A stretch of DNA of 64,000 nucleotides from Thoreauomyces humboldtii. Its lineage: Eukaryota; Chytridiomycota; Chytridiomycetes; Spizellomycetales; Powellomycetaceae. A program made the translations under genes and the position numbers. The notes beneath the pieces were generated by a model that did not search any database, had not been told where the DNA came from, and saw only the letters and a list, made by a program, of their open reading frames with translations. The DNA is taken from the NCBI GenBank assembly GCA_027596035.1, contig JADGJA010000029.1, positions 1 to 64,000 of the forward strand, in the 5' to 3' direction. Positions 430-64,000 of the stretch are shown here, piece after piece; position 1 is the first letter of the stretch; every line of letters starts with the position of its first letter.

Positions 430-2781
430 ATGCGAGTGACAGCAGTGCAGGCGATAGCGCAACCAGCCGACGTCGCAATAAACCTGCGGAGACCCCATAA
501 ACTGACATCTATGGTGATTCAGCCCGTGGCGGATGGCATCGACCAGGAGAGTTTCAAGACACGCGCTGGGGACCTCGCCGATTTGTGCGATGTATTACAT
601 CGGGACTACGAACTGCCGACTGAAATGCAGTTGTATACTGATCGTCGCCAAGCAGCACAAGCTACGCCGGAGCTGACTGATGCGTTAATCTGGCAGTTTC
701 GTGACGCCTCCCCATCCCGCACAATCTATGTGTACTATGTCACGGCCGCCGGAAACGATGCCGCTGCTACACGTGCCGCTGAACTCTTCTGCCACGTGCC
801 TTCGTTCGAACAGAATCCTTTGTGGAATCCGACCGGCGACCTTTATTGTATTCGTCCTGTGGACCTGATACGTAGGCTGTACGACGAGCTGAGTCTAGCT
901 CTGCGCTGGTTCGTTGCGTCCCACTTGACAGCCACTGAAACCTACTACGTGTCCGGCGGCATTAAGAGAACGAGGCCAACTCGTCTGTTTTTCTCTGCTA
1001 CCGATACGCTCCGGGGCCTTAAAGGCAAGCCCCAGAAGCAGCTACATGTTGTTGCCATTTCCGATGAGAGCTACGCGCATGCTAAGAAACAGCTTAGCAA
1101 GAAGGACACAGCGGAGGAGTGGCGCTGGCCTGCGATTGAAGATGGCACAGTGCATCGTACCTTGTCAGAGTACTTCGAGCTACGCTGCGTGTGGGACTGT
1201 GACAAGCTGCTCCAACACATCAAGCGAAATCGGCAATACGGCGATGAAGCACGAGCTGCCGCAGGACGCCTGTTCCAACTGCGCAACATGGTGTTTCATC
1301 GCTCATTCTTAGCTCAAGGCTCTGAAGAAGAGATTCTCCAATACACGATGCGTGGCGTGCTCTTTTTCTTCTGGAAGACTGACGAGTTATTCAAGCAATG
1401 CAAGTCGGCACCGCTGCATGATCCGAAATTCGAAAAAGCTTTCAGCGATCATCTGCGCCAGCTGCGGCGCATGGAGAGGTTTTCGAAAAAAATGTTCGAG
1501 CGCCTGCGCCAACCGATAGTCAATCCGGATGAGGTCGAGAATTTGTTGACGAAGCTTATTGCGAGTCAAGAGAAAAACGAGGACAGAAAGGCGAACTTCC
1601 AGCTAAAAATGCAATTGGCGCTTACATTTGGCACACACTTCTCCAAGCCGCTTTCCTTTGCGCCTGACGTGACCACCGCTGATGCGACTCCAGCTCCGGG
1701 TGATTGTGAGCCTAGCGCTGCCTATCAAGCTGGTCAGGCCCGGTTACCACTTCATGAGGGTTCATCCCAACATGACAGTGCGGGTGCCCTACCGGGCGTG
1801 TTCAGCGTACAAGTAGAGTCACTGCTTGCGCGTACGCAAGTGCAACGCTGGGACTGGGACCCGAAGACTAAGCAGCCCGTACAGCGATGGTATCCTCTGG
1901 TAGATCCACTAGGCGTGAACCACGCGGACATACTTTGGCGCGGTCTCGACGCCATGTCGACCGTTTTGCACGACATCATCTTTAAGGATATTTGGATGAG
2001 AGACCATCGGGCGCGTGCATACGCCTGTGCAAGATCGAAGCCGCTTGTCAGCATCGTACTCAGTACAGTGCCGGGCCTTGAGCTTTGCGTGTTCATCCCC
2101 GAAAAGCAGCACGATGCTGATCTGGACGCGGAATACATTGATTATTTCCGCGATCCATCGATGCTGCTGCAGTCACTGCGTGAAATTTTAGAACACTACG
2201 GCCAGGTGACGCACGTACCCGCCGGATTTTTCAAGAACTTGACTAAAGACATCGAGGACGTTCTGAACTCCCGCGACATCCTGTCACATCAGTACTACAT
2301 GGAGAAGCCGGCTGCAATCGACATCGCCGGCGTGCGTCGGCGACTCAACGCCATGATGTGTGTCATTCAGGGTGCGCTCAAGCTCATCAACGTTGAGCAC
2401 CGCAAAGATTTAGACCAGCAGTGGCATGACAAAGTGGCTTGGCGACTTCTAGCAACGCTCAGAGAGGCAGCCTGCAACGATGACATCAAATCGAACTCGG
2501 GCAACTACAAGGAGTACCGAAGGCGCCAACAAGTCGGCATCACTGAACGGGCCTTCGAGCTGCGACACTCGGCTAGTGTGCGTAGTATCTTGGATTCGTT
2601 GCTGGTCAGCAAAGATGCAGCGCATTTACGTGTGGCGCGCTCGTTGCTCGATCGCTTCTTCCAGCGGGAGACCCCGGCTAGCAATTATGTCCCTATTTCT
2701 GGAGTAGCGAGCTTTGAACACCAAAATGCTTACGCGGCATTAATGGACGACATGATGGATTCTTTTGATGAAGATGTGTGA
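430..2781 (+). CDS. Subtelomeric protein with two HEPN-like motifs (putative RNase)
   Basis: This is a single-exon frame of 783 residues and the first gene inside the telomere. I do not recognise the whole protein. Two short motifs stand out: RNMVFH at residues 285-290 (DNA 1282-1299) and RDILSH at 615-620 (DNA 2272-2289). Both fit the HEPN catalytic signature, R followed by a polar residue and then H at Rx4H spacing, and both sit in predicted helices. HEPN proteins are often metal-independent RNases, so a two-HEPN-domain RNase is an inference. Residues about 410-460 form a low-complexity linker between the halves; the C-terminus is acidic. The ATG at 430 gives the longest frame, but the overlapping basic frame upstream leaves a start at residue 28 (base 511) possible. 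No signal peptide is visible. The right-arm copy is cut by the window end. Confidence 0.7.
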   Translation: MRVTAVQAIAQPADVAINLRRPHKLTSMVIQPVADGIDQESFKTRAGDLADLCDVLHRDYELPTEMQLYTDRRQAAQATPELTDALIWQFRDASPSRTIYVYYVTAAGNDAAATRAAELFCHVPSFEQNPLWNPTGDLYCIRPVDLIRRLYDELSLALRWFVASHLTATETYYVSGGIKRTRPTRLFFSATDTLRGLKGKPQKQLHVVAISDESYAHAKKQLSKKDTAEEWRWPAIEDGTVHRTLSEYFELRCVWDCDKLLQHIKRNRQYGDEARAAAGRLFQLRNMVFHRSFLAQGSEEEILQYTMRGVLFFFWKTDELFKQCKSAPLHDPKFEKAFSDHLRQLRRMERFSKKMFERLRQPIVNPDEVENLLTKLIASQEKNEDRKANFQLKMQLALTFGTHFSKPLSFAPDVTTADATPAPGDCEPSAAYQAGQARLPLHEGSSQHDSAGALPGVFSVQVESLLARTQVQRWDWDPKTKQPVQRWYPLVDPLGVNHADILWRGLDAMSTVLHDIIFKDIWMRDHRARAYACARSKPLVSIVLSTVPGLELCVFIPEKQHDADLDAEYIDYFRDPSMLLQSLREILEHYGQVTHVPAGFFKNLTKDIEDVLNSRDILSHQYYMEKPAAIDIAGVRRRLNAMMCVIQGALKLINVEHRKDLDQQWHDKVAWRLLATLREAACNDDIKSNSGNYKEYRRRQQVGITERAFELRHSASVRSILDSLLVSKDAAHLRVARSLLDRFFQRETPASNYVPISGVASFEHQNAYAALMDDMMDSFDEDV

Positions 2782-3812
2782 TGGAGTTCAGCCCCTCTGT
2801 CCTTCCCTGAACCAAGTGACCGCCGTGGCGGGCAACAACAATTTCTGAACACCGAAGCCTGGTTTGCGTCTTGCCCCGTGCTAGCATCGTAGCGCGAAGT
2901 CTCTCCACGCGGATCCGTGTCGCGCGTGTCTTGATATCACATGATTGTCGTGTGGACGGTCTCTTCTTAGATGAAGCGCTGGGATCGGGAGCAGACAGGA
3001 AGGGCAGTGTGTGCAGAGCGTTACAAATTATTCTATGGCATAATTCTATACAATAATGTCTTCGCCTTCGATGCCTGTGTTTACGGCGTCCAGAAACGGT
3101 TCCAGGCGTCAAGTTTACGAGCTCTGGCACAGGTGATCAAGATCAGTTGCTCCACAGCCATGCTTCTCGCAGGGATTGGCGAATATACGGGCAAGATGCC
3201 GATCACGATAGAAAAAAGGAAGAAGCGGCTCGGGAGGAGCTCTTCCCCTGGTCAGTAACCAATTTTCTCAATCCTACTTTCCAGAGTGATGCACTTCAAC
3301 GTTTCGACAAACATGCAACGTTGATAAGCATGCAACATCACGGCACAACCCTGATGGGGCATCACGATCTGTGAAGAGGGTGCCGTGTTTTAGTGAGTGC
3401 TACAACCGAAAGACCCTGGAGGGACGGACTTCTCGCCACCTGCAGCGGGCCCCACGAGCTTCCACGCGTAAGTAATGGTCAATCAGAACAGAGACCCACA
3501 AGACCAGTTTTATTAAACAAATAGACCCAGATGGGAAGCACCGAGAGCGTTATGATTTCCGGCCCAAGCACTTTATGCAGATAAAGTTCGCTCAAAAACA
3601 GCAATGCTTTCCCTGCGATAGGGCAGGGTCCGACTAGAAAGGTGTCGGTACCATGGCTGTCGAAGACATCCCAAAGCATCCACGTCCGTTTCTTTCCACC
3701 CGGTTGTCGCGGACTGCACTCATCGAGTGGGTCCAAACGCAGTTTCTATGGGAAAAAATAAAAGCGCACTTGTAACACTATTGACACATCATGACCCAAA
3801 AGTATTCTTATC
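2782..3812. other. Intergenic, no supported gene (mirror 62813-63843)
   Basis: Only short frames are present, most without ATG. A minus-strand frame at 3479-3736 (85 residues, hydrophobic C-terminal half) starts at TTG and has no recognisable motif. I see no repeat or RNA gene. Confidence 0.5.
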
Positions 3813-4019
3813 ATGCAAAGCTTGTCTGGGCGGGCTGTTCTCCCACTTCTGTCCAAGCACAGAGTCTCCCGCCCAGACAAGCTTAGAGAACTGGCGAAGA
3901 CGCTAGAATTGTCCGTGAACACGATTGTACGCATTCTTCAGGAGGGAGAGCAGTGCAGGACAGGAAGGAGAATCACGGTCGAGCGCCGACCAGTGGCAGT
4001 ACGCTCCGTTTACTCTTGA
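3813..4019 (+). CDS. Short ORF with helix-turn-helix-like segment
   Basis: This is a 68-residue frame from an ATG. Residues about 22-45 (KLRELAKTLELSVNTIVRIL) have the spacing of a helix-turn-helix, such as those at the N-terminus of transposases, followed by a basic RTGRR patch. No catalytic domain follows, so it would be a remnant if real. The first third overlaps a 17-bp inverted repeat. It could equally be a chance frame. Confidence 0.25.
   Translation: MQSLSGRAVLPLLSKHRVSRPDKLRELAKTLELSVNTIVRILQEGEQCRTGRRITVERRPVAVRSVYS
3818..3884. repeat. 17-bp perfect inverted repeat (hairpin)
   Basis: AAGCTTGTCTGGGCGGG at 3818-3834 is repeated as its exact reverse complement at 3868-3884, with a 33-nt loop. 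It lies inside the short HTH-like frame. Mirror copy at 62741-62807. Confidence 0.95.
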
Positions 4020-4830
4020 ACTTTTGGAACGGGCCCTCAAAATTACTTAGCAAAGGCAGCTGGTATGTATGCCAACATCGGCGTTCCTTGATGCTTTGAA
4101 GTTCACCGAAAGAAGCGGGTGAATTTCAAAGATTATCCATATAGTAGTATATATGGTATTGGTGCACTGAGAAAGATATTGAATCAAGTTAGTTGAGCTC
4201 CGCTTTCGGCAGCTAGATATGAGTCACAATGCGTCAAATCGTGCTGCCTACAAACGATTGCTCACTCGTTCAGTGGCACGCATACGACCGTGTGCCTAAT
4301 TACAGAGAGCCCTGGGCAATTACACTCCTCTTTTTAAGATAATGATGGCTACGGAAAACTCGTGTTTTTCGGGAAAGCTGTCTCATGTCCAAATTGTGAC
4401 AATGTCAGTGCAACGCGGGCGTTAATAAATTGTACGATGCATGCGTGGTGCTTTCATTGGGACAGACAACCTTTAAAGGAACGCGCCAGACTTGAGCCAC
4501 TGGGTGCAACTCGGCGACCGTTTGGAACCCTGTTGGGGTAGCGGCTGAGAGATGGGACGCGCCTACAATTGAAGCTGTCCAGTACCTCCGAAAACTGCTA
4601 CATCCTTTCATGTACCATTTAGTCTTGTGTCATAAAGCCTCGGCGGGGCCGGTCCGCGAGCGTGCCAAGCTTAAAAGCGAGCCGCTTCCCAAGGCTTAGG
4701 CGTCTGCAAGCGCTTGGGAAGGCTGGGGGAGATTGGGGAGTATCTTCGAGTGGCATACGTCCCCTCCCTTCCCCTCTAAAAAACTATTGTGTATTAGACC
4801 TGCTTTGTAGACCTCGTTTGGTGACCTATC
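4020..4830. other. Intergenic, nothing supported (mirror 61795-62605)
   Basis: There is an AT-rich patch near 4135-4165 and a pyrimidine-rich stretch near 4760. Short frames on both strands lack motifs or convincing starts. Confidence 0.5.
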
Positions 4831-5265
4831 CTATGGGCCAGTAGGAAGAGAATTTTTTTTGGAGGCGGGGGAAGGGGGGAACGTACGCCACTCGACATTG
4901 CACTGAATCTCCCCTGACAGCAGGTTGTTCACAGTCAGGAAGGCTTTGCTCGCAAAGAACAGCCTTTCCAGAACTGTTTTCTTCTCACGTTGCCGATGGT
5001 AGTATCGCGAACGAATGTCCACATGCGACTTGGTGGCGGCCGCAAGCGCTTTTGCCGAGGCGAGAGTAATGACTTTTGCAAAATCGATTTTGATTGGATG
5101 TGTGGCAATTGAGAGCACAAAGTCAAAGCGAGCTAGGAACTCACCAGGAACGTCGAGAGGTTTCTCAAGCAAGCGACATGGCACCCCAACGGCATCGAGC
5201 ACATATTGTTCAGCCTCACGTAGCAGCTCTAATGATACCGGTTCGTCATCCCAAGACAGAATCAT
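4831..5265 (-). CDS. Hypothetical protein
   Basis: This frame starts at an ATG and encodes 144 residues. The first ~125 look protein-like: amphipathic helices rich in Leu, Ala and Lys, then NNLLSGEIQCNVEW. The last residues read through a C/A-rich stretch and may be intron: a GTACGT donor-like site follows the VEWR codons. I do not recognise the family. It lies downstream of, and on the same strand as, the LanC-like remnant and could be a separate small gene or a 3' exon of a decayed one. Confidence 0.4.
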   Translation of the reverse strand: MILSWDDEPVSLELLREAEQYVLDAVGVPCRLLEKPLDVPGEFLARFDFVLSIATHPIKIDFAKVITLASAKALAAATKSHVDIRSRYYHRQREKKTVLERLFFASKAFLTVNNLLSGEIQCNVEWRTFPPSPASKKNSLPTGP

Positions 5266-5374
5266 TAAACCATTAAATACAAGTGTGCTGATATGCCAGC
5301 CTGCCCGCTTGAAGAAGCTTGAAGCTTACAATGAGAGAATGTCCACACCTCTTGACTCGTTGAATGCTGAGATA

Positions 5375-5728
5375 TCAAGACGATAGCAGGAGAACTGGTG
5401 ACATGAGCCAGCTTGCAGTGAATCTGAGCGTACAATATGGATGTGTGTGCGAATACGTGAAAGCTGTTCTGTCGAGAACTGAATCTTCCCGAGGCAGGCT
5501 GCCGAAGTCAATCCTGCCGCTATCCAACTTGAAGTCGTATAGACAGCTTCGCCACAGCGCGTTTGGCCCTCTGACCTGCATCGGGGGCACGTCCATTTTG
5601 GCGCGGAGTTGGTGGATGGGGACGACGTGGAAGGATATACCGGTGGAGGGGCGACAGCGCCACTGGTCTGGTGTCATTTGCATAGCGTCAGGACAGCCAA
5701 GATGAAGATTCCACGTGTCATAGGGCAT
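5375..5728 (-). CDS. Hypothetical frame, possible exon of a decayed gene
   Basis: This is a 117-residue frame on the same strand as the LanC-like remnant upstream. Its 5' part overlaps the distal copy of a 113-bp direct repeat that carries an intron-exon boundary. The segment after it (HVVPIHQLRAKMDVPPMQVR) reads like coding sequence. No family recognised. The ATG lies inside what looks like an intron, so the true 5' end is probably a splice acceptor near 5666. Confidence 0.3.
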   Translation of the reverse strand: MPYDTWNLHLGCPDAMQMTPDQWRCRPSTGISFHVVPIHQLRAKMDVPPMQVRGPNALWRSCLYDFKLDSGRIDFGSLPREDSVLDRTAFTYSHTHPYCTLRFTASWLMSPVLLLSS

Positions 5729-5870
5729 TTACCTGAGATTTTCTGACCATCTGCAAAGACGACGTGGAAGGATATACCGGGAAAGGGGCGACAGCGCTAA
5801 CGGTCTGGTGTCATTTGTATAGCGTCAGGACAGCCAGATGAAGGCCTTACGTGTAATGGGGTACTCACCT
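5621..5870. repeat. Imperfect direct duplication of an intron-exon segment
   Basis: Two copies of about 113 bp lie at 5621-5734 and 5758-5870, separated by 23 bp. Read on the minus strand each holds a donor-like GTRARx, a shared core GGCTGTCCTGACGCTAT, a CACCAG acceptor and an exon start containing GGTATATCCTTCCACGTCGT. The copies differ by scattered substitutions, so the duplication is not recent. Mirror 60755-61004. Confidence 0.85.
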
Positions 5871-6187
5871 GCAACATCGGGCTCCGAGAAACGCCTGCAA
5901 CCTCCTTTGCAGTCTGGAGGTACAGCTTTGCCCAATCGACAAGTGTCTTTCCTTCAACAGGAAATGCCCAGCGTGGTGACAGGAGAAAAAAAACCCCAAG
6001 CGATGGAGGTCGGTCCTGAGTAGAAGCCGAGCATATCGTCCTCGTCTCTGCCCAGAAAGGTTTCGGCGACGGGAGGATACGAGTTGACCATGTGCGCTAG
6101 CTGCTTCGCAATCTCGGCCTGGGCATCGAATGGTTGCGTTGCTCCGTCGTTTGCAAAGTGTCTCGGTCGCCCGAATCGAGTCGACAT
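5869..6187 (-). pseudogene. LanC-like protein fragment, frameshifted
   Basis: Starting at the ATG at 6187, the frame runs 64 residues to GFYSGPTSIAW. This resembles the GPTSIAY-type segment near the N-terminus of fungal lanthionine-synthetase-C-like proteins. It then shifts frame inside a run of eight A (plus strand 5986-5993). In the next frame the sequence continues as FFLLSPRWAFPVEGKTL to a GTGAGT splice donor at 5868, as that family would. One base fewer in the homopolymer would keep a single frame, so this is either a true frameshift or a sequencing indel. The expected large alpha/alpha-barrel body is not seen downstream; only the duplicated exon segment follows. Family assignment is moderate. 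Confidence 0.5.
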
Positions 6188-6602
6188 TATCGTCAGCTTC
6201 CTGTCTAGCAAAAATTGATCACGCGAAGAGGTTGAGGGAGGAAAGCGGCAAGGTTGCATGTCAGGGTCACACCCGCCAGAAATGGAGTGCCGCAACCCTG
6301 CACGTTGACTAGCCGAGTACTTACGAGTGACTTGAAGGTCAAGTACGCCCTTCACACAGACACAATGTCTCCATCTATACAATGGTAACACTCGATGTCC
6401 TCGCCATTGTACCTTGACTAGGCATGAGAACGGATAAGTAATATACACCGCGCTTCCAACATTAACCTCTTTGAAGGGTCTTCGCAACGAGCTTCGCCAA
6501 GCCATTGCGACTTGCATGGCGTCACCTCGACGTACACGGCCACCCCAGGCATTTTGCGTACCAAGATGCAACTTCAGCGAGTGACTTCATGTTTCTGATT
6601 TC
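6188..6602. other. Intergenic between same-strand genes (mirror 60023-60437)
   Basis: This stretch holds the presumed 3' UTR of the nuclease-like gene and the 5' region of the LanC-like remnant. Open minus-strand codons extend upstream of 6187 without a motif. Confidence 0.4.
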
Positions 6603-7313
6603 TCATTGGCGGTCTCGTGATACGGCCCCGAAAAGTAAGCCCGCTAGCCCGAGCACTCCCACCGTCACAGCCAGCTTAGAGCCCAATCCCATCCTTTCCG
6701 TCTCCTCCTCTTCCTTGACGTCCCCCGTTTCCTTCGTCATTTGCATCAATCCGTGCCGCGTGGGAGTGCTCGGGTAAACGACATCTCCAAAATCGGCGTC
6801 CACTGGTTCGAAGCCCACGTATGAGCACCCCACAACTTCATTGTACGGATGGAGCTCAGCCCAGGCGTTGGTATATCTCTGAACCTGTTCGCGGACCTTT
6901 TGATGGGCTTTCCTCCGGCTTTCCCGGGCAGTGGAGCCCGTTCCTGGGTGCAGCCCCTTGACTTCGACGACTAAGTACCGGGATCGGTCGCTGCTGGCAA
7001 AGACCAGGTCTCCTTCGCCAAGATGTGAAAGACCGGGTTGCGGGTTCCAGTCCCTGGCTGCGAGGATTGGGTAGCCGTCAAGGGGATTGGCGATGAGGTG
7101 GTTGCGGAGACGGCCCTCGCGCGTTTGTTGAGCTAACAAGAAAGCGCCGTGCTCCATTTGTGTGGGGTAATGTTGCATCGAGCCGTGGCGAAGCGGAGGC
7201 GATTGGAAGGGAGTCAAGGAGGAATGGCAAGTAAGGATTTCAAGAGCAATGATGGTGTGTTCGACGAAAAGGGTAGTTGCTGGAGAAGGGTTGATCAGGC
7301 CTTGCACCAACAT
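6603..7313 (-). CDS. PD-(D/E)XK nuclease-like protein with C-terminal membrane anchor
   Basis: The protein has 236 residues from the ATG at 7313; an internal Met at residue 46 is a possible alternative start. The core shows the PD-(D/E)XK pattern: D102 in GEGDLVF, then E117-x-K119 in YLVVEVKG, followed by QVQRY at 143-147, which matches the QxxxY helix of RecB-family nucleases. Residues about 213-230 (LAVTVGVLGLAGLLFGAV) form a hydrophobic segment next to a short basic tail, so the protein could be tail-anchored with its nuclease domain in the cytosol. The family cleaves DNA or RNA with a metal ion; the substrate here is unknown. Upstream on its 5' side is a CTCGAGGT repeat element also found before the NYN gene. 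Confidence 0.7.
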   Translation of the reverse strand: MLVQGLINPSPATTLFVEHTIIALEILTCHSSLTPFQSPPLRHGSMQHYPTQMEHGAFLLAQQTREGRLRNHLIANPLDGYPILAARDWNPQPGLSHLGEGDLVFASSDRSRYLVVEVKGLHPGTGSTARESRRKAHQKVREQVQRYTNAWAELHPYNEVVGCSYVGFEPVDADFGDVVYPSTPTRHGLMQMTKETGDVKEEEETERMGLGSKLAVTVGVLGLAGLLFGAVSRDRQ

Positions 7314-7460
7314 TATATCGGCCGGGACCGAGACGTACCACTATGCGTGTGTTGTCAATGCTTGTGAATCCTTTGTCTTTAGGAACGGCAAAGCGTGAAG
7401 GTCGAAACCCATCAATGGACGATGAAGCAAGGGAAGGGGAAGGGGAAGGATCCGGCCGCG

Positions 7461-7552
7461 CGTCTCGAGGTGACCGACCCACCACCCTGCCACAAGGTCA
7501 CGCTCTCGAGGTGACCACCTCGTGTCCAGGTCCCAACCTCGAGGTTGTCCCA
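7461..7552 (-). repeat. CTCGAGGTGACC repeat element upstream of the PD-(D/E)XK gene
   Basis: CTCGAGGTGACC occurs at 7464 and again at 7505, with a related ACCTCGAGGT at 7536. Read on the minus strand, the direction of the downstream gene, GGTGGTCACCTCGAG at 7505-7519 differs by one base from 9811-9825 upstream of the NYN gene, and CAGGGTGGT is also shared. A GGGGAAGGGGAAGG tract and a GC-rich stretch adjoin (7430-7463). Mirror 59073-59164. Confidence 0.7.
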
Positions 7553-7580
7553 TATCCGTCCGCGATTTCGGACAGAAATC

Positions 7581-7856
7581 TCACTTGTACTGAAGGCCAC
7601 CAGTAACTAGTTGCCCGCATGCCAACACATCCCCACAAAATTCCCGCTGCCGGTCCTTGATACGCGCGAAATCTGGTACAAAGAACTGTCGGTATGCTTG
7701 CCAGCTCGTCCAGAGCCCAAGGGCTACTTGGTGTTTGGCTCGGATGGTCGGAAAGAAACTAACCGTGAGGACGTCATCGTCCGTTGCAGAAGAACGGGGA
7801 CCAGGCAGCTGCACTCGGTGGATATTCTCGCCCAGCCAAAGTCGGCGGCCGAACAA
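7581..7856 (-). CDS. Hypothetical frame, possibly 3' exon
   Basis: This minus-strand frame has 91 residues and no ATG start. The stretch TVSFFPTIRAKHQVALGLW reads like a folded domain. A different minus frame (7724-8038) precedes it, so a frameshift or an intron near 7850 may join them into one gene. The plus strand is also open here (7611-8057), and coding direction is not certain. No family recognised. Confidence 0.3.
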   Translation of the reverse strand: MFGRRLWLGENIHRVQLPGPRSSATDDDVLTVSFFPTIRAKHQVALGLWTSWQAYRQFFVPDFARIKDRQREFCGDVLACGQLVTGGLQYK

Positions 7857-8346
7857 GACGGGGTGATGAACACGCTCGACAAAGGTTCAATCTGTGAGGC
7901 GACGACCGCTGTTCCAGAACTACCGGCGAACGAAACCGCTGCTGTCAAGCGCAGGATCACCGAGCCCGGGTGGAACATCCCACACGTGGAGTGGCTGTGC
8001 CAGTTGCTATTAGCTTCAGGGTGCGCACTCGACAGCATGTTTTCTCAATGGTTCTGATCGATAAGGTAAGAATCATCGTTGATTATCCCAGCTCGATGTG
8101 TCGCCGCGCTCATCTGACCCTGTCCCAGCGTACATCAAGGCCGTGCGTCAGTTGCGGACATCTGACAATTCATGATAACTTCCGCTCAGCTTTCTCTGTT
8201 CCGTCCGCAGCCCTTCTTTTTGCTCTTTATTCCACACTTTGGCTACCAATCAAAGCCATTCCAGTCCAATTGTATTCGAAAAGGTACATCGAGCTAACAC
8301 TTCTCTCCGGAATACACGTCTACCGCATGACCGCGAAGCTTTTCGG
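7857..8346. other. Intergenic / 3' region of the ART-like gene (mirror 58279-58768)
   Basis: Short frames exist on both strands. A 132-residue plus frame (7970-8368) overlaps the 3' end of the minus-strand gene and is probably a shadow. I see no repeats. Confidence 0.4.
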
Positions 8347-9486
8347 TCACGTATCGAAACGGCAATGAGATGGTAACTTGAGGTTGAGCGTCGCGTTGGG
8401 AATCTTGCGAGCTGCCGCGTAGGCACCAGGAAAGTTATGGTCTCGGAGGCACGAAAGGAAAATCTCCCAGTTCGAGTCCATACTCGCTGGCTCTGCTTCT
8501 AAAAAGCGGGGTTGGCCATCGAGTGTTCGAACCAAAACGACACCGTGACTCTCGTCGTCGTTGTAATCGTCGTTGAGTTCCTTGTAAGCGAGCATACGAG
8601 TAGAACGGGTGGAGAAACGTTTCATGAGCGCCCACGTGCACAGAAATGCCTCGGTCTTGGAGATGCGGAGCTCCGTGCACTTGTCGCGGAGTCGCTTGCA
8701 GTCATAATAGCGTACGACAGACCAAGATTTGATATCGCGTGGGAACTTAAATCTCCGTATCGCAGAAACTCCAAGGTGTGCTCCCTGGTGCTGTGTGTCT
8801 AGACGAGAATTAGAATTAATATTGCTTGCAAGGGGCTCCCGCCAATTGGTCTTGTGCCTCGCTGAGGTCGAGGGGTCGAAAGCTGTTGTGTATTTGAGAG
8901 CGTAGTGCTTGTCGGCGTCTGAGTCCTAGTACCACGGTCCTCCACGTACCGATGGATCAAAGCGGAGATGATCCAAATCTTGGTACTCAGCCACCAGCCT
9001 CGTAGGCACCACAAAAATCCTCGATGCAGATTGGCTCTTGTGGTAGTCGATCATCTCCAGGAAGTAGTAGGTGAAGTGATTCTGACCGTTCCCGTGAGAG
9101 CCTCGGCGAAGTATACCCTCTGTTCCGTCGAGACTCAAGTTGAAGACGACAGGTCCAAATCGCGAGTTGAGCTCGCTATTCGGGGCAACCCAGCACGTTT
9201 TTGTATGGTGGACGCACGCATACTCGGGTGGGACCGTTGTATTTTCGATGAGATTAAGTCCGCCGTTGGCTACTGTGGAGTCCGTGGAAACGCGCCCAGA
9301 AATTTGGCCGTCAATAGCGATTCGCCTGAGTGCTTCAATGTGCGTTGCGTGGACAAGACCGTCGAACTCCTCGTAGTCCTCCATGCCTGTGTCTCCAAGG
9401 GCGGTGTTGCCGAGTTTGCAGGTGGGTTTACATTGTCTGGCAGCCAGTGAGTGTACTGTTGCGGATAGTGGTTGGAGGGACCACAT
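8347..9486 (-). pseudogene. ADP-ribosyltransferase-like gene with one in-frame TAG
   Basis: The frame runs from the ATG at 9486 (or an internal ATG at residue 35) through 186 codons to TAG at 8926-8928. It continues in the same frame for 192 further codons to TGA at 8347. Both halves look coding, so this is one 379-codon frame with a single nonsense codon. The N-terminal half begins LVHATHIEALRRIAIDGQIS; an H-x-T followed by I-x(6-10)-G recalls KptA- and DarT-type ADP-ribosyltransferase folds. This is suggestive only, and I cannot place the catalytic Arg and Glu. A 24-nt GTACGT...CTAG stretch would remove the stop in frame but is far shorter than neighbouring introns. Gene decay is the simplest reading; functional truncation after 186 residues is possible. 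Confidence 0.5.
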
Positions 9487-9740
9487 CTAGGCGGGTGGCT
9501 ACAGCATAGCTGGTGCTTTCCATTAACCGTCATTGCCCGTGCAATCTTGAATTCGACACTATACGCGCGGAGATGGTCATTTGCTTTTCGCGGGAGGCTG
9601 GGGGTTCCGCCGGAGAAGAGAGGGAGGGGAAGAGTGACAACGATGTTCTTAGGGGCGCGAGTTGGATTTCCGAAACAAATACCCTTGGTAGTGTCACACG
9701 TGTATATTTGTACGTCTGAAGTCGCGGATCTGAGTCACTT

Positions 9741-9901
9741 CGCGAGACCAACCTCGGGGTCGGGGCCTGCGGACAATGGTGGTTACCTCAAGGTCCAAGC
9801 CTCGAGACAGGGTGGTCACCGCGAGATTGGCACCTTCAGGCAGGGTCGTGGTCTCGAGGTCGGGACGGGACCTTGACGTGGGGTGGCCACCTCGATTGGA
9901 G
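9741..9901 (+). repeat. CTCGAGG repeat element upstream of the NYN gene
   Basis: Degenerate repeats occur with cores ACCTCGGGGT (9751), GCCTCGAGAC (9799) and GTCTCGAGGTCGGG (9851), plus GGTGGTCACCGCGAG at 9811-9825. They match, in the same orientation relative to transcription, the element before the PD-(D/E)XK gene. A purine tract of GGGGAAGG units and a CGCGACGCGCGC stretch follow at 9973-10020. The region sits between two divergent genes. Mirror 56724-56884. Confidence 0.7.
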
Positions 9902-50928: not shown

Positions 50929-50993
50929 CTGCAAGTTATAAAAACCGTATTAGCTCAGAGAGGGGCGCTCGAATCTGACATCCTCGACTCAAC

Positions 50994-54376: not shown

Positions 54377-54781
54377 ATGGCGGGCTATGTGGCCGTGCAA
54401 AGCGTGCCGGCGCAATGTCGGATTGGGAGTCCGTTATTCGGACGATCAGATCAGGAATGCCACGCGTGGTTTTGTATGGGTAGTGGGCACAACGTTCCTT
54501 CAGAAAGAACCCGCCTGCTACTGACCAAGAATTTCAAGACGACTTCTACAGGACTGGGACTCTCCCCGTAACGTTGAACGGAGGACGCAATTAAGGAGAC
54601 GACGACAAACCTTATCACGTGGCTGACAGCCGATCTGGAAAAGCGGATGCGTTTTCTGAGCGCGCTGGAGAAAAGTAGCAACAAGCAGGCGGATACGCAC
54701 GATGAAAACGCGGATCAGGAAGACGGCGGTGACACGAACGATATTTTGAGTGATGACGTGGAAGTTGACGAAAGCGACTGA
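54377..54781 (+). pseudogene. Acidic-tail hypothetical, broken (right copy)
   Basis: Mirror of 11844-12248; the same TAA (54569-54571) and TGA (54575-54577). Confidence 0.4.
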
Positions 54782-55135
54782 ACTGTTCTGCTTTCAAGGT
54801 AAACCGCCCTACGTGCAAAGATTTGAAGTTGAATAACCACCCACTTAAGCTCACGTGCTCTCCCCGGTGCAGTAAGTGACAGCAACGCAGAGGAGCCAAG
54901 AGAGATAGAGCGAGCTGCAGACGCATTGACCAAGGTCAGAGCTGGCCACAATTGTCGTTTGCCTTCTCTATCCTACCGAAATCTTTCCTGTATAAATACC
55001 ACTCCCTGCAAGACACATACTGTGCAGCATGTACTATAGAGAAATAAATGTGTGTTGCTAAGCAGCGTCACATTGGCGTCACATTGGCGTCACAGAATAA
55101 AATCAGAATTCGCATTGGTACGGAATATGATTGTC

Positions 55136-56566
55136 CTACATCCCCAAACCATCGTAGGGAGATGCCACAGACGACGACGGCTCGGTGAGCGTTGTTGTCA
55201 GCTTGAGGCGATAATGCTTGATACCTGTGGCACCCTCCTCGTGCGAGACATCAACCGCACCCTCAGATTTCGCCCGCTGGTACAGGGGTTTAAGGCTTAC
55301 AGGGTACCTCTGCCTGAGCAGAGGATATTTATCCCAGAGCCTCGCAGCCACCAACGTGGTCTTGTGCCAGCGGTCGGCAGGATTCACATTTTTCTTTGCC
55401 TTGTCTAGCTCCAGAAGGACTTCAACCAGCTGCACGACCCCGGATGCAAGCAGCTGATTCTGTTGCGCCTCGGTACTGCTGCCCGTGACACTGACGACTT
55501 CGTTTGAGTCCTCGTCCACCTCAACGTGGAGAGCGCTCCCCGGTCGCTCTAGCGGCACCTCAACCGAACCCAGGGGTTTGGCCACAAGGCCGCCTGCGTC
55601 GTCATCATCATCGATCGCGACGTCCTCTTCGGGTGCGTTTAGAAGTAGCTCCCATGGGATGGTCTTTGATGCAGCGCGCTTGAGACGGTCCGCGCAGTCC
55701 CTACCGTGCACCAGCACAACAAAGAACTTCCTGTCGCAGAGTCGCGCAATTACGTAGCTAGGAAGAATGTGGAAGGATAATGTTACCCAAGGTGACCGCA
55801 GAAGAACTCGGTGTCAAGCGAACCTTAAATCCTTGTCTCCACACATAAGGACAATTTTGACCGGGGGTGGGTGGTCCATGGCCCAAAACAGCACGTCGGC
55901 AATCAGAAGTTTGTCGGCAATTTCCTTCGTACCGTCGTGCGGCGTGTCGAGGAAAGAGCATCCGCTCTGCACAAGGTCGGCGCGTTTGTATTTCGCTGGC
56001 TGCTTGTGCTCGCCGTATACCTGAATCGTGGACTTCATGAGACCATAGCTCCGAAGTCCGGCTTTGATGCGGTTAACAGTCTCTGAGGCCGAGAGGTCCT
56101 AAGGGCAAAGAAGGTGGCGGAGCATGCGTAAGCGTCGAGATGATCCGGTCGGGAGGGAAGCGGACTCGACATACAGAGGGGATAGCGAGATTTTCGATAT
56201 CCCAGTAGACAATTGCTTCCGCTGCTTCATCACGCTTGAAACAGCTTACGATATCCTTTGCAGCGATAACGGGAAGACCTAGGCTGGTAAGGTCTTCCAC
56301 GGCATCTTGCCGCAGCAGCGAATCCGAGGTAACACCGCCATCCCATGAGTAAGGTTCCGTTGCTTTTGACGTTGGAGTTTGGGTGAGACGCGGCCCAAAA
56401 CCCCACCTCGACGGAGCTGAGCTGCCATGATAGGCGGAAGTAGTTTTTGGACTTTTAGGGGATGGAGGCGGTGTTTTCTGCTGTTTTCCACGGACCGCGG
56501 CGCACTGCGCAGTCGGTTAACCAGAGAACGGACCGTGCGGTCGAATGGAGACACCTGTCTCACCAT
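55136..56566 (-). CDS. NYN-LOTUS-like protein (right copy)
   Basis: Mirror of 10059-11489. Exons 56566-56564, 56504-56175, 56098-55824 and 55757-55136. Confidence 0.75.
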
Positions 56567-57138
56567 CTGAACCTTAAGCCACGAGGAAGACCTCGTCCGC
56601 TTTCGCGCGCGTCGCGCCCCTTCCCCTTCCCCTTTCCTGACCCTTCCCCTTTTCACATCTTGCCTCCTTCCAGTTTTCCACCATTCAGCTCACTGCGACC
56701 GGCGTGCCCCCGCGTCTCCATGCCTCCAATCGAGGTGGCCACCCCACGTCAAGGTCCCGTCCCGACCTCGAGACCACGACCCTGCCTGAAGGTGCCAATC
56801 TCGCGGTGACCACCCTGTCTCGAGGCTTGGACCTTGAGGTAACCACCATTGTCCGCAGGCCCCGACCCCGAGGTTGGTCTCGCGAAGTGACTCAGATCCG
56901 CGACTTCAGACGTACAAATATACACGTGTGACACTACCAAGGGTATTTGTTTCGGAAATCCAACTCGCGCCCCTAAGAACATCGTTGTCACTCTTCCCCT
57001 CCCTCTCTTCTCCGGCGGAACCCCCAGCCTCCCGCGAAAAGCAAATGACCATCTCCGCGCGTATAGTGTCGAATTCAAGATTGCACGGGCAATGACGGTT
57101 AATGGAAAGCACCAGCTATGCTGTAGCCACCCGCCTAG

Positions 57139-58278
57139 ATGTGGTCCCTCCAACCACTATCCGCAACAGTACACTCACTGGCTGCCAGACAATGTAAACC
57201 CACCTGCAAACTCGGCAACACCGCCCTTGGAGACACAGGCATGGAGGACTACGAGGAGTTCGACGGTCTTGTCCACGCAACGCACATTGAAGCACTCAGG
57301 CGAATCGCTATTGACGGCCAAATTTCTGGGCGCGTTTCCACGGACTCCACAGTAGCCAACGGCGGACTTAATCTCATCGAAAATACAACGGTCCCACCCG
57401 AGTATGCGTGCGTCCACCATACAAAAACGTGCTGGGTTGCCCCGAATAGCGAGCTCAACTCGCGATTTGGACCTGTCGTCTTCAACTTGAGTCTCGACGG
57501 AACAGAGGGTATACTTCGCCGAGGCTCTCACGGGAACGGTCAGAATCACTTCACCTACTACTTCCTGGAGATGATCGACTACCACAAGAGCCAATCTGCA
57601 TCGAGGATTTTTGTGGTGCCTACGAGGCTGGTGGCTGAGTACCAAGATTTGGATCATCTCCGCTTTGATCCATCGGTACGTGGAGGACCGTGGTACTAGG
57701 ACTCAGACGCCGACAAGCACTACGCTCTCAAATACACAACAGCTTTCGACCCCTCGACCTCAGCGAGGCACAAGACCAATTGGCGGGAGCCCCTTGCAAG
57801 CAATATTAATTCTAATTCTCGTCTAGACACACAGCACCAGGGAGCACACCTTGGAGTTTCTGCGATACGGAGATTTAAGTTCCCACGCGATATCAAATCT
57901 TGGTCTGTCGTACGCTATTATGACTGCAAGCGACTCCGCGACAAGTGCACGGAGCTCCGCATCTCCAAGACCGAGGCATTTCTGTGCACGTGGGCGCTCA
58001 TGAAACGTTTCTCCACCCGTTCTACTCGTATGCTCGCTTACAAGGAACTCAACGACGATTACAACGACGACGAGAGTCACGGTGTCGTTTTGGTTCGAAC
58101 ACTCGATGGCCAACCCCGCTTTTTAGAAGCAGAGCCAGCGAGTATGGACTCGAACTGGGAGATTTTCCTTTCGTGCCTCCGAGACCATAACTTTCCTGGT
58201 GCCTACGCGGCAGCTCGCAAGATTCCCAACGCGACGCTCAACCTCAAGTTACCATCTCATTGCCGTTTCGATACGTGA
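57139..58278 (+). pseudogene. ADP-ribosyltransferase-like gene with TAG (right copy)
   Basis: Mirror of 8347-9486; TAG at 57697-57699. Confidence 0.5.
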
Positions 58279-58768
58279 CCGAAAAGCTTCGCGGTCATGC
58301 GGTAGACGTGTATTCCGGAGAGAAGTGTTAGCTCGATGTACCTTTTCGAATACAATTGGACTGGAATGGCTTTGATTGGTAGCCAAAGTGTGGAATAAAG
58401 AGCAAAAAGAAGGGCTGCGGACGGAACAGAGAAAGCTGAGCGGAAGTTATCATGAATTGTCAGATGTCCGCAACTGACGCACGGCCTTGATGTACGCTGG
58501 GACAGGGTCAGATGAGCGCGGCGACACATCGAGCTGGGATAATCAACGATGATTCTTACCTTATCGATCAGAACCATTGAGAAAACATGCTGTCGAGTGC
58601 GCACCCTGAAGCTAATAGCAACTGGCACAGCCACTCCACGTGTGGGATGTTCCACCCGGGCTCGGTGATCCTGCGCTTGACAGCAGCGGTTTCGTTCGCC
58701 GGTAGTTCTGGAACAGCGGTCGTCGCCTCACAGATTGAACCTTTGTCGAGCGTGTTCATCACCCCGTC

Positions 58769-59044
58769 TTGTTCGGCCGCCGACTTTGGCTGGGCGAGAA
58801 TATCCACCGAGTGCAGCTGCCTGGTCCCCGTTCTTCTGCAACGGACGATGACGTCCTCACGGTTAGTTTCTTTCCGACCATCCGAGCCAAACACCAAGTA
58901 GCCCTTGGGCTCTGGACGAGCTGGCAAGCATACCGACAGTTCTTTGTACCAGATTTCGCGCGTATCAAGGACCGGCAGCGGGAATTTTGTGGGGATGTGT
59001 TGGCATGCGGGCAACTAGTTACTGGTGGCCTTCAGTACAAGTGA
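58769..59044 (+). CDS. Hypothetical frame (right copy)
   Basis: Mirror of 7581-7856. Confidence 0.3.
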   Translation: MFGRRLWLGENIHRVQLPGPRSSATDDDVLTVSFFPTIRAKHQVALGLWTSWQAYRQFFVPDFARIKDRQREFCGDVLACGQLVTGGLQYK

Positions 59045-59311
59045 GATTTCTGTCCGAAATCGCGGACGGATATGGGACAACCTCGAGGTTGGGACCTGGA
59101 CACGAGGTGGTCACCTCGAGAGCGTGACCTTGTGGCAGGGTGGTGGGTCGGTCACCTCGAGACGCGCGGCCGGATCCTTCCCCTTCCCCTTCCCTTGCTT
59201 CATCGTCCATTGATGGGTTTCGACCTTCACGCTTTGCCGTTCCTAAAGACAAAGGATTCACAAGCATTGACAACACACGCATAGTGGTACGTCTCGGTCC
59301 CGGCCGATATA

Positions 59312-60022
59312 ATGTTGGTGCAAGGCCTGATCAACCCTTCTCCAGCAACTACCCTTTTCGTCGAACACACCATCATTGCTCTTGAAATCCTTACTTGCCA
59401 TTCCTCCTTGACTCCCTTCCAATCGCCTCCGCTTCGCCACGGCTCGATGCAACATTACCCCACACAAATGGAGCACGGCGCTTTCTTGTTAGCTCAACAA
59501 ACGCGCGAGGGCCGTCTCCGCAACCACCTCATCGCCAATCCCCTTGACGGCTACCCAATCCTCGCAGCCAGGGACTGGAACCCGCAACCCGGTCTTTCAC
59601 ATCTTGGCGAAGGAGACCTGGTCTTTGCCAGCAGCGACCGATCCCGGTACTTAGTCGTCGAAGTCAAGGGGCTGCACCCAGGAACGGGCTCCACTGCCCG
59701 GGAAAGCCGGAGGAAAGCCCATCAAAAGGTCCGCGAACAGGTTCAGAGATATACCAACGCCTGGGCTGAGCTCCATCCGTACAATGAAGTTGTGGGGTGC
59801 TCATACGTGGGCTTCGAACCAGTGGACGCCGATTTTGGAGATGTCGTTTACCCGAGCACTCCCACGCGGCACGGATTGATGCAAATGACGAAGGAAACGG
59901 GGGACGTCAAGGAAGAGGAGGAGACGGAAAGGATGGGATTGGGCTCTAAGCTGGCTGTGACGGTGGGAGTGCTCGGGCTAGCGGGCTTACTTTTCGGGGC
60001 CGTATCACGAGACCGCCAATGA
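59312..60022 (+). CDS. PD-(D/E)XK nuclease-like protein (right copy)
   Basis: Mirror of 6603-7313; its upstream repeat element is at 59073-59164. Confidence 0.7.
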   Translation: MLVQGLINPSPATTLFVEHTIIALEILTCHSSLTPFQSPPLRHGSMQHYPTQMEHGAFLLAQQTREGRLRNHLIANPLDGYPILAARDWNPQPGLSHLGEGDLVFASSDRSRYLVVEVKGLHPGTGSTARESRRKAHQKVREQVQRYTNAWAELHPYNEVVGCSYVGFEPVDADFGDVVYPSTPTRHGLMQMTKETGDVKEEEETERMGLGSKLAVTVGVLGLAGLLFGAVSRDRQ

Positions 60023-60437
60023 GAAATCAGAAACATGAAGTCACTCGCTGAAGTTGCATCTTGGTACGCAAAATGCCTGGGGTGGCCGTGTACGTCGAGG
60101 TGACGCCATGCAAGTCGCAATGGCTTGGCGAAGCTCGTTGCGAAGACCCTTCAAAGAGGTTAATGTTGGAAGCGCGGTGTATATTACTTATCCGTTCTCA
60201 TGCCTAGTCAAGGTACAATGGCGAGGACATCGAGTGTTACCATTGTATAGATGGAGACATTGTGTCTGTGTGAAGGGCGTACTTGACCTTCAAGTCACTC
60301 GTAAGTACTCGGCTAGTCAACGTGCAGGGTTGCGGCACTCCATTTCTGGCGGGTGTGACCCTGACATGCAACCTTGCCGCTTTCCTCCCTCAACCTCTTC
60401 GCGTGATCAATTTTTGCTAGACAGGAAGCTGACGATA

Positions 60438-60756
60438 ATGTCGACTCGATTCGGGCGACCGAGACACTTTGCAAACGACGGAGCAACGCAACCATTCGAT
60501 GCCCAGGCCGAGATTGCGAAGCAGCTAGCGCACATGGTCAACTCGTATCCTCCCGTCGCCGAAACCTTTCTGGGCAGAGACGAGGACGATATGCTCGGCT
60601 TCTACTCAGGACCGACCTCCATCGCTTGGGGTTTTTTTTCTCCTGTCACCACGCTGGGCATTTCCTGTTGAAGGAAAGACACTTGTCGATTGGGCAAAGC
60701 TGTACCTCCAGACTGCAAAGGAGGTTGCAGGCGTTTCTCGGAGCCCGATGTTGCAG
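60438..60756 (+). pseudogene. LanC-like fragment, frameshifted (right copy)
   Basis: Mirror of 5869-6187; the homopolymer appears as eight T at 60632-60639. Confidence 0.5.
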
Positions 60757-60896
60757 GTGAGTACCCCATTACACGTAAGGCCTTCATCTGGCTGTCCTGA
60801 CGCTATACAAATGACACCAGACCGTTAGCGCTGTCGCCCCTTTCCCGGTATATCCTTCCACGTCGTCTTTGCAGATGGTCAGAAAATCTCAGGTAA

Positions 60897-61250
60897 ATGC
60901 CCTATGACACGTGGAATCTTCATCTTGGCTGTCCTGACGCTATGCAAATGACACCAGACCAGTGGCGCTGTCGCCCCTCCACCGGTATATCCTTCCACGT
61001 CGTCCCCATCCACCAACTCCGCGCCAAAATGGACGTGCCCCCGATGCAGGTCAGAGGGCCAAACGCGCTGTGGCGAAGCTGTCTATACGACTTCAAGTTG
61101 GATAGCGGCAGGATTGACTTCGGCAGCCTGCCTCGGGAAGATTCAGTTCTCGACAGAACAGCTTTCACGTATTCGCACACACATCCATATTGTACGCTCA
61201 GATTCACTGCAAGCTGGCTCATGTCACCAGTTCTCCTGCTATCGTCTTGA
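60897..61250 (+). CDS. Hypothetical frame (right copy)
   Basis: Mirror of 5375-5728. Confidence 0.3.
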   Translation: MPYDTWNLHLGCPDAMQMTPDQWRCRPSTGISFHVVPIHQLRAKMDVPPMQVRGPNALWRSCLYDFKLDSGRIDFGSLPREDSVLDRTAFTYSHTHPYCTLRFTASWLMSPVLLLSS

Positions 61251-61359
61251 TATCTCAGCATTCAACGAGTCAAGAGGTGTGGACATTCTCTCATTGTAAG
61301 CTTCAAGCTTCTTCAAGCGGGCAGGCTGGCATATCAGCACACTTGTATTTAATGGTTTA

Positions 61360-61794
61360 ATGATTCTGTCTTGGGATGACGAACCGGTATCATTAGAGCT
61401 GCTACGTGAGGCTGAACAATATGTGCTCGATGCCGTTGGGGTGCCATGTCGCTTGCTTGAGAAACCTCTCGACGTTCCTGGTGAGTTCCTAGCTCGCTTT
61501 GACTTTGTGCTCTCAATTGCCACACATCCAATCAAAATCGATTTTGCAAAAGTCATTACTCTCGCCTCGGCAAAAGCGCTTGCGGCCGCCACCAAGTCGC
61601 ATGTGGACATTCGTTCGCGATACTACCATCGGCAACGTGAGAAGAAAACAGTTCTGGAAAGGCTGTTCTTTGCGAGCAAAGCCTTCCTGACTGTGAACAA
61701 CCTGCTGTCAGGGGAGATTCAGTGCAATGTCGAGTGGCGTACGTTCCCCCCTTCCCCCGCCTCCAAAAAAAATTCTCTTCCTACTGGCCCATAG
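61360..61794 (+). CDS. Hypothetical protein (right copy)
   Basis: Mirror of 4831-5265. Confidence 0.4.
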   Translation: MILSWDDEPVSLELLREAEQYVLDAVGVPCRLLEKPLDVPGEFLARFDFVLSIATHPIKIDFAKVITLASAKALAAATKSHVDIRSRYYHRQREKKTVLERLFFASKAFLTVNNLLSGEIQCNVEWRTFPPSPASKKNSLPTGP

Positions 61795-62605
61795 GATAGG
61801 TCACCAAACGAGGTCTACAAAGCAGGTCTAATACACAATAGTTTTTTAGAGGGGAAGGGAGGGGACGTATGCCACTCGAAGATACTCCCCAATCTCCCCC
61901 AGCCTTCCCAAGCGCTTGCAGACGCCTAAGCCTTGGGAAGCGGCTCGCTTTTAAGCTTGGCACGCTCGCGGACCGGCCCCGCCGAGGCTTTATGACACAA
62001 GACTAAATGGTACATGAAAGGATGTAGCAGTTTTCGGAGGTACTGGACAGCTTCAATTGTAGGCGCGTCCCATCTCTCAGCCGCTACCCCAACAGGGTTC
62101 CAAACGGTCGCCGAGTTGCACCCAGTGGCTCAAGTCTGGCGCGTTCCTTTAAAGGTTGTCTGTCCCAATGAAAGCACCACGCATGCATCGTACAATTTAT
62201 TAACGCCCGCGTTGCACTGACATTGTCACAATTTGGACATGAGACAGCTTTCCCGAAAAACACGAGTTTTCCGTAGCCATCATTATCTTAAAAAGAGGAG
62301 TGTAATTGCCCAGGGCTCTCTGTAATTAGGCACACGGTCGTATGCGTGCCACTGAACGAGTGAGCAATCGTTTGTAGGCAGCACGATTTGACGCATTGTG
62401 ACTCATATCTAGCTGCCGAAAGCGGAGCTCAACTAACTTGATTCAATATCTTTCTCAGTGCACCAATACCATATATACTACTATATGGATAATCTTTGAA
62501 ATTCACCCGCTTCTTTCGGTGAACTTCAAAGCATCAAGGAACGCCGATGTTGGCATACATACCAGCTGCCTTTGCTAAGTAATTTTGAGGGCCCGTTCCA
62601 AAAGT

Positions 62606-62812
62606 TCAAGAGTAAACGGAGCGTACTGCCACTGGTCGGCGCTCGACCGTGATTCTCCTTCCTGTCCTGCACTGCTCTCCCTCCTGAAGAATGCGTACAA
62701 TCGTGTTCACGGACAATTCTAGCGTCTTCGCCAGTTCTCTAAGCTTGTCTGGGCGGGAGACTCTGTGCTTGGACAGAAGTGGGAGAACAGCCCGCCCAGA
62801 CAAGCTTTGCAT
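62606..62812 (-). CDS. HTH-like short ORF (right copy)
   Basis: Mirror of 3813-4019, containing the 17-bp inverted repeat at 62741-62807. Confidence 0.25.
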   Translation of the reverse strand: MQSLSGRAVLPLLSKHRVSRPDKLRELAKTLELSVNTIVRILQEGEQCRTGRRITVERRPVAVRSVYS

Positions 62813-63843
62813 GATAAGAATACTTTTGGGTCATGATGTGTCAATAGTGTTACAAGTGCGCTTTTATTTTTTCCCATAGAAACTGCGTTTGGACCCACTC
62901 GATGAGTGCAGTCCGCGACAACCGGGTGGAAAGAAACGGACGTGGATGCTTTGGGATGTCTTCGACAGCCATGGTACCGACACCTTTCTAGTCGGACCCT
63001 GCCCTATCGCAGGGAAAGCATTGCTGTTTTTGAGCGAACTTTATCTGCATAAAGTGCTTGGGCCGGAAATCATAACGCTCTCGGTGCTTCCCATCTGGGT
63101 CTATTTGTTTAATAAAACTGGTCTTGTGGGTCTCTGTTCTGATTGACCATTACTTACGCGTGGAAGCTCGTGGGGCCCGCTGCAGGTGGCGAGAAGTCCG
63201 TCCCTCCAGGGTCTTTCGGTTGTAGCACTCACTAAAACACGGCACCCTCTTCACAGATCGTGATGCCCCATCAGGGTTGTGCCGTGATGTTGCATGCTTA
63301 TCAACGTTGCATGTTTGTCGAAACGTTGAAGTGCATCACTCTGGAAAGTAGGATTGAGAAAATTGGTTACTGACCAGGGGAAGAGCTCCTCCCGAGCCGC
63401 TTCTTCCTTTTTTCTATCGTGATCGGCATCTTGCCCGTATATTCGCCAATCCCTGCGAGAAGCATGGCTGTGGAGCAACTGATCTTGATCACCTGTGCCA
63501 GAGCTCGTAAACTTGACGCCTGGAACCGTTTCTGGACGCCGTAAACACAGGCATCGAAGGCGAAGACATTATTGTATAGAATTATGCCATAGAATAATTT
63601 GTAACGCTCTGCACACACTGCCCTTCCTGTCTGCTCCCGATCCCAGCGCTTCATCTAAGAAGAGACCGTCCACACGACAATCATGTGATATCAAGACACG
63701 CGCGACACGGATCCGCGTGGAGAGACTTCGCGCTACGATGCTAGCACGGGGCAAGACGCAAACCAGGCTTCGGTGTTCAGAAATTGTTGTTGCCCGCCAC
63801 GGCGGTCACTTGGTTCAGGGAAGGACAGAGGGGCTGAACTCCA

Positions 63844-64000
63844 TCACACATCTTCATCAAAAGAATCCATCATGTCGTCCATTAATGCCGCGTAAGCATT
63901 TTGGTGTTCAAAGCTCGCTACTCCAGAAATAGGGACATAATTGCTAGCCGGGGTCTCCCGCTGGAAGAAGCGATCGAGCAACGAGCGCGCCACACGTAAA
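63844..64000 (-). CDS. Two-HEPN-motif protein, 3' end only (right copy)
   Basis: Mirror of 2625-2781, the last 51 codons plus stop of the telomere-proximal gene. The remainder lies past the end of the window. Confidence 0.7.
   Translation of the reverse strand, partial: LRVARSLLDRFFQRETPASNYVPISGVASFEHQNAYAALMDDMMDSFDEDV

Follow-up and report, generated by a model that had tools for sequence, protein, structure and literature searches.

A 66.6-kb telomere-to-telomere palindrome in the Thoreauomyces humboldtii assembly is probably one chromosome end written twice

Contig C212 of the T. humboldtii assembly (JADGJA010000029.1) reads from end to end as a perfect palindrome of 66.6 kb. We conclude that this structure is probably a product of short-read assembly, in which one telomeric chromosome end was written twice at a smaller inverted duplication. 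The contig gives no evidence for a palindromic minichromosome. Our analysis was centered on the first 64,000 nucleotides of the contig (hereafter the window), whose features are collected in Table 1.

Within the window, the sequence mirrors itself about the bond 33312/33313 over 30,688 base pairs with 0 mismatches and no spacer, bearing out the perfect spacer-free palindrome described by the first-pass annotation. The minisatellite claimed for both arms was likewise recovered (9-bp unit, ~12 copies), lying at 21753-21861 and mirrored at 44764-44872. The same annotation had predicted a record of 66,624 bp with identical telomeric ends, and C212 is exactly that long: bases 1-3000 recur in reverse complement as its final 3,000 bases, window positions 1-9624 likewise as its final 9,624 bases, and both ends carry CCCTAA repeats. 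The two telomere tracts are base-for-base identical, including a 5-base unit. A 24-base telomere pattern (four exact units in a row) was found in 7 contigs of the assembly, C212 being the only one with the pattern at both ends, and parts of the arm resemble the telomere-bearing contigs C234, C104, and C539.

In 20.67 Mb, chance alone would be expected to yield ~5 perfect palindromes of at least 22 bp and practically none that reach 78 bp; the observed mirror is far above this level. Among 24 further contigs examined at both ends, none was an end-to-end palindrome, and no inverted 31-mer repeats occurred within 19 ten-kb contig starts. Exact mirroring does not in itself demonstrate two physical arms, because a graph assembler writes such a mirror when walking the same edges on both strands. 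Most likely, the mirror arm repeats graph edges already written for the first arm.

Table 1 Features of the window and the evidence on which they rest.
Feature	Coordinates	Strand	Basis
Telomere tract, ~14 CCCTAA units, one 5-base unit (bases 26-30)	1..84	+	Tandem repeat found at 2-84, and letters
Arm, one subtelomeric chromosome end, probably the sole real copy	1..33312	+	Mirror analysis
Main coding part of HKX48_004363, 1249 aa	26945..29575	+	Protein search
Segment with diverged collinear copy on C383:14832-18600, deletions between	27390..32612	+	Five pieces at 86-97%
ORF of HKX48_004362, 586 aa, gene nearest the fold	30683..32425	-	Protein comparison
77-base overlap with the last 77 bases of C383, identical; mismatch at the preceding base	32536..32612	+	Comparison of contig ends
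Self-complementary edge of 1,554 bp at the center, common to arm and C383 in the model	32536..34089	.	Toy k=77 graph, continuation of C383 given as input
G8 run ending 20 bases before the fold; no other G/C run in the arm (33,312 bp) reaches 8; C8 mirror at 33333-33340	33285..33292	+	Letters
Mirror arm, exact reverse complement; the record runs on to 66,624	33313..64000	-	100% mirror matches
The 77-base overlap in mirror image; under the model, the path may exit here to the reverse complement of the arm or of C383	34013..34089	-	Mirror coordinate, 66625 minus position

A second contig, C383 (18,600 bp), meets the palindrome close to its center. Its match to the arm reaches its very last base, with 94% identity over window positions 30277-32612 (2.3 kb) and 96% over the last 713 bp (31900-32612, mirrored at 34013-34725). 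Genome searches of the examined contigs found no third contig at the junction 32536-32612 and no other contigs matching 32600-33325 or 33180-33312. Because the junction and the stretch between it and the fold drew no third contig, C383 appears, among the contigs examined, to run on into the center. These searches scored just the top candidates from a loose initial pass, and the contigs with recorded lengths all exceeded 10 kb (smallest 10,120 bp); shorter contigs with another exit may be missing.

Screening of 64 contig ends (one masked) against the contig sequence examined returned partners for two, C383 and C430, and none for the others. Of two more ends searched against the genome, one paired C60 with C42, and the end of C120 gave no partner. 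All three pairs found (C383/C212, C430/C350, and C60/C42) share exactly 77 bases, which points to a de Bruijn assembly with k=77, probably by a SPAdes-like assembler. In line with short reads, contig C800 opens with adapter-like letters, which we take to be Nextera/Tn5-like. No description of the Thoreauomyces assembly was found in the genome literature, including the accessible parts of PMC12075339 and of PMC7537106, which names the collection culture JEL0095.

In the model that we favor, the k=77 graph would hold a single 1,554-bp self-complementary edge at the center of the palindrome. The telomeric arm and C383 would both lead into this edge, and the reverse complements of both would lead out of it. 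The simplest real chromosome order would then be telomere, arm, central edge, and reversed C383; in such a chromosome, ~6 kb would be natively duplicated in head-to-head inverted orientation, and the two halves would be identical in the middle. On leaving the central edge, the path written as C212 would have turned back into the reverse complement of the arm and not into C383, and such a wrong exit would print 33 kb, including the telomere, twice. When this order (telomere-arm-center-C383) was given to a toy k=77 graph, it broke into a 32,612-bp unitig and a self-conjugate one of 1,554 bp, and the C383 side stopped at the junction, just as C383 does in the assembly. With only a true palindrome as input, the graph was one unbranched unitig of 66,624 bp. 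The model is further favored by the position of the fold beside the G8 run, a type of site that is enriched at the contig ends of this assembly: of 64 sampled contig ends, 6 have a G/C run of at least 8 within 50 bp and 3 within 30 bp, compared with 0.0008 expected per 50-bp end.

For the mis-join, the innermost 777 bp on each side must match perfectly without a spacer, though divergence between the neighboring copies is 4-6% and higher in some of the outer pieces; a perfect spacer-free palindrome of this kind is itself unusual. The model also has to suppose that the assembler preferred the arm's reverse complement over C383, and most sampled contig ends (58 of 64, one masked) have no G/C run of 8 within 50 bp. 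With SPAdes-type de Bruijn mis-joins at inverted repeats, where an edge is self-conjugate, the contig shares one exact overlap length, a self-complementary center, and identical arms; it differs in that the assembler is here deduced and undocumented. Our literature search found no paper describing exactly such a palindrome artefact, and in the accessible part of PMC6350398 repeat content is related only to assembly fragmentation.

The first-pass annotation had named a minichromosome, a breakage-fusion product, a hairpin end, and a fold-back read artefact as candidates and had leaned towards an artefact or a very young event. Its artefact half is supported, with the assembly graph and not a single fold-back read as the source, since C383 meets the center by a 77-base overlap. 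A very young event gains no support from zero divergence, because the arms are forced to be identical when one edge is written twice, which makes the lack of divergence uninformative on age.

A different assembly artefact, which we regard as unlikely, would start from a short native palindrome at the fold: its true continuation would have been lost from the graph (through poor coverage beside the G8 run, or because a short contig is missing), and the assembler would have folded back. The ~5 palindromes of at least 22 bp expected by chance would be enough for a low starting k. The enrichment of sites like the adjoining G8 run at contig ends would also suit this reading. However, C383 appears to feed the same center, so both true continuations would need to be missing, and no other examined contig matched the center.

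We consider it decidedly unlikely that C212 depicts a real ~66.6-kb telomere-to-telomere palindromic linear amplicon or minichromosome, formed by fold-back at a native inverted repeat near the telomere and existing alongside the normal end or in its place. The narrower version, in which a natural amplicon seeded at a subtelomeric native inverted repeat coexists with the ordinary chromosome end, is less probable again. The exact mirror with telomere repeats at both ends would suit such a molecule, and a surplus of arm copies would account for the exit chosen by the assembler. C383 furthermore would supply the diverged partner repeat that the mechanism needs as its substrate: the copy at 94-96% meets the center, in a chromosomal orientation that we infer from the graph. 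When a real palindrome coexisting with C383 was modeled in the toy graph (M2b and M2c), the same branches arose. Nevertheless, every one of these features is also predicted by one edge path written twice, and the telomere repeats at both ends would come automatically if one arm were written twice. Identical telomere tracts, down to the 5-base unit, are expected of a copy but not required of two independently maintained telomeres.

Known palindromic systems offer partial parallels. The rDNA minichromosomes of Tetrahymena and Physarum are linear palindromes with telomeres at both ends and rRNA genes in their arms; here, no rRNA or other Rfam family reached the gathering threshold in the 64,000 bases, which include the whole arm. 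In Leishmania, inverted repeats seed linear amplicons in which a chromosome segment lies in inverted duplication at an inverted-repeat pair; in the accessible part of that study, the amplicons measured 125-565 kb on pulsed-field gels after drug selection and were fewer without MRE11 (PMC4256157). C212, in contrast, is known only as part of a draft fungal assembly and has a simpler explanation in the assembly process. Terminal palindromes in budding yeast follow telomere loss in cells lacking telomere maintenance, as far as the accessible part of the source describes them (PMC4981268). They resemble C212 as inverted duplications near a chromosome end and differ from it in that our contig bears no sign of telomere loss.

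We regard as very improbable a fold-back that arose in the reads or during library preparation (through inverted chimeric reads or a missed long-read adapter) and was then extended by the assembler. Such chimeras fit the zero spacer and zero divergence observed, but the 77-base overlaps and Tn5-like adapter letters point to short-read graph assembly, and a rare chimera would leave the second contig meeting the same center unexplained.

Among the genes of the arm, HKX48_004362 has ankyrin-like matches below curated cut-offs, and its 90%-identical paralogue, HKX48_005986 (partial), lies on C383. Relatives of HKX48_004363 in Geranomyces variabilis are 46-48% identical. The ORF at 430-2781 was considered as a telomere-linked helicase and left unnamed, with no Pfam family, no PDB sequence match at E up to 1, and one 32%-identical protein besides the window's own. 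Each arm protein was listed once in the protein search, in which a match also named T. humboldtii.

The contig numbers resemble a length ranking that C212, C90, and C500 break. We therefore considered the idea that these contigs had been lengthened after length sorting, and rejected it, as the contig numbers, at least for the earlier names, fit an alphabetical order of length-ranked names (C212 would be name 29, C90 name 18, C2 name 10, and C3 name 100). With no absent name, 43 of 44 sampled contigs fell in order, the exception being C500; C661 (at least 79,332 bp) is a second exception. Both contigs require some absent names, and none of 20,000 trials that assumed 1 plus 5 absent names gave a fit. 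The main mis-join argument is independent of contig naming.

In summary, one 33-kb chromosome end probably appears twice in a public contig, which could be mistaken for a minichromosome. A general recipe for such cases is to check whether a second contig ends by sharing k bases with the putative palindrome, and zero divergence in a graph assembly should not be taken as youth. If the amplicon were true after all, it would represent spontaneous fold-back amplification in a chytrid, and amplification of the Leishmania type would then also occur in an early-diverging fungus, without known selection.

Direct comparison within the window places an exact mirror axis at 33312/33313, with 30,688 pairs, no mismatches and no spacer. 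The record, contig C212 of assembly G000 (20.67 Mb, 823 contigs), is 66,624 bp long, the size predicted in the first-pass annotation, and the identical telomeric ends foreseen there are also found in it: the contig end is the reverse complement of the start, with CCCTAA repeats at both. Each arm piece 85-9000, 9001-17000, 17001-25000 and 31900-32612 matched the mirror copy at 100% identity when searched; piece 25001-33312 returned no C212 match among the five of six candidates scored, and this stretch is covered by the direct comparison. The mirror is present in the record but, judged from the sequences, most likely absent from the cell.

A second contig, C383 (18,600 bp), carries at 14832-18600 a diverged version of window 27390-32612 that has deletions and aligns in five pieces (86–97% identity). 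The longest piece has 94% identity over window 30277-32612, the final 713 bp have 96%, and the match to the arm stops only where C383 itself ends. Its final 77 bases are exactly window 32536-32612, the preceding base is mismatched, and the last 150 bases hold 4 differences in total. Short, weaker matches to window 30002-30457 lie on C669, C778, C110 and C547. A genome search, in which the best candidates were scored and contigs of known size all exceeded 10 kb, found a third contig neither at this junction nor between it and the fold; among the contigs examined, C383 can therefore only continue into the centre, from 32536 towards the fold.

In the model we propose, C383 and the arm would share the sequence between 32536 and the fold, and this stretch with its mirror would form one 1,554-bp edge, identical to its own reverse complement. 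A path leaving that edge would enter either the arm or C383, each read as its reverse complement. C212 would be a walk leaving this edge through the wrong exit. A toy graph (k = 77) of a telomere-arm-centre-C383 reversed chromosome gave two unitigs, of 32,612 and 1,554 bp, and a C383 side, with two branch vertices, and the C383 side matches the observed end; because the C383 continuation was its input, the graph tests consistency and adds no independent evidence. Such a chromosome, with an arm:centre:C383 copy number of 1 : 2 : 1, is the simplest genome in which every piece is used once.

Contig ends elsewhere share 77 bases too: the overlap of C430 and C350 is exactly 77 bases, and that of C60 and C42 is 77 bases as taken from the BLAST match length. 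No further partners emerged from a screen of 64 contig ends against the contig sequences examined, nor any for the C120 end in the genome search. Repeated exact sharing of this length at contig ends is characteristic of de Bruijn assembly at k = 77, a usual last k of SPAdes. Contig C800 starts (L053, first 53 or so bases) with mosaic-end-like letters, which we take to be the Nextera/Tn5 mosaic end, followed by about 11 C; the 16-base pattern has its only exact match in the genome here. The sequence would be residual adapter in the public assembly, which agrees with short-read sequencing.

Among seven telomere-bearing contigs, C212 alone has the repeat at both ends, and no end-to-end palindrome occurs among 24 other contigs whose two ends were both read; both are further pointers to an artefact. 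Another is the G8 run 20 bases before the fold, the single G/C run of at least 8 in the arm. Of 64 sampled contig ends, 6 have a G/C run of at least 8 within 50 bp and 3 have one within 30 bp. This is an enrichment over contig interiors, where 3 runs in 179,985 bases lead to an expectation of 0.0008 per 50-bp end; the other 58 ends, one of them masked N, have none within 50 bp. Long C or G runs, of 10 to about 20, occur at the C280 end (L083) and at the starts of C90 (L038) and C1 (L034). The first-pass annotation had leaned towards an artefact or a very young event. The artefact is the probable reading, as an assembly-graph walk; youth is not supported by the zero divergence, because a single edge path printed twice necessarily yields identical arms and identical telomere tracts, which are thus evidence of neither youth nor a second telomere.

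The graph-walk model demands 777 identical bases per side without a spacer, though adjoining copies differ by 4–6%, so that the inverted duplication would call for gene conversion or some recent local event. Because of this demand, the best-candidate search and its >10 kb scope, within which a short contig could offer another continuation, two rivals keep some weight. One is an unlikely second artefact route, in which the continuation was lost and the assembly folded back at a short native palindrome; the other, a real linear amplicon of the kind described in Leishmania (PMC4256157), is slightly less likely still. Against a true 66,624-bp palindrome alone stands the toy graph, where it forms one unbranched unitig and leaves the C383 end unexplained. 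A true palindrome together with a C383 molecule yields the branches of the telomere-arm-centre-C383 chromosome, at arm:centre:C383 ratios of 2 : 2.95 : 1 or 2 : 4 : 2.

Features annotated in the arm
Feature	Window position	Strand	Basis or context
ORF, 783 aa, telomere-adjacent	430-2781	+	ORF call
Protein-kinase-like fragment PF00069	15134-15646	-	Pfam
ABC transporter transmembrane domain PF00664	16566-17591	+	Pfam
9-bp minisatellite ACAGGGGCG, ~12 copies	21753-21861		Within overlapping ORFs, both strands

The telomere-adjacent ORF has no Pfam or PDB sequence match and a single distant relative (P0007, a protein from a 2,646-bp contig; 32% identity). Window 14774-15635 (862 bp), overlapping the kinase-like fragment, is 96% identical to C661:78471-79332, perhaps through a recent duplication or mobile element. 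No Rfam family reached the gathering threshold in the window, and a scan with the bacterial code found no tRNA there. In a protein search, the arm protein HKX48_004363 of Thoreauomyces humboldtii (Chytridiomycota, Spizellomycetales) had relatives in Geranomyces variabilis (46–48% identical).

Pieces of the arm are similar, at 74–95%, to contigs C234, C104 and C539, which bear telomere repeats, and the arm thus has the look of a true chromosome end. The C104 repeat itself appears internal or chimeric, as four telomere units within C104:29740-31311 (L004) are followed by 48 mostly non-telomeric bases to the contig end. The real part of the record is probably a single 33-kb subtelomere, linked to C383 by an inverted duplication of about 6 kb in head-to-head arrangement.
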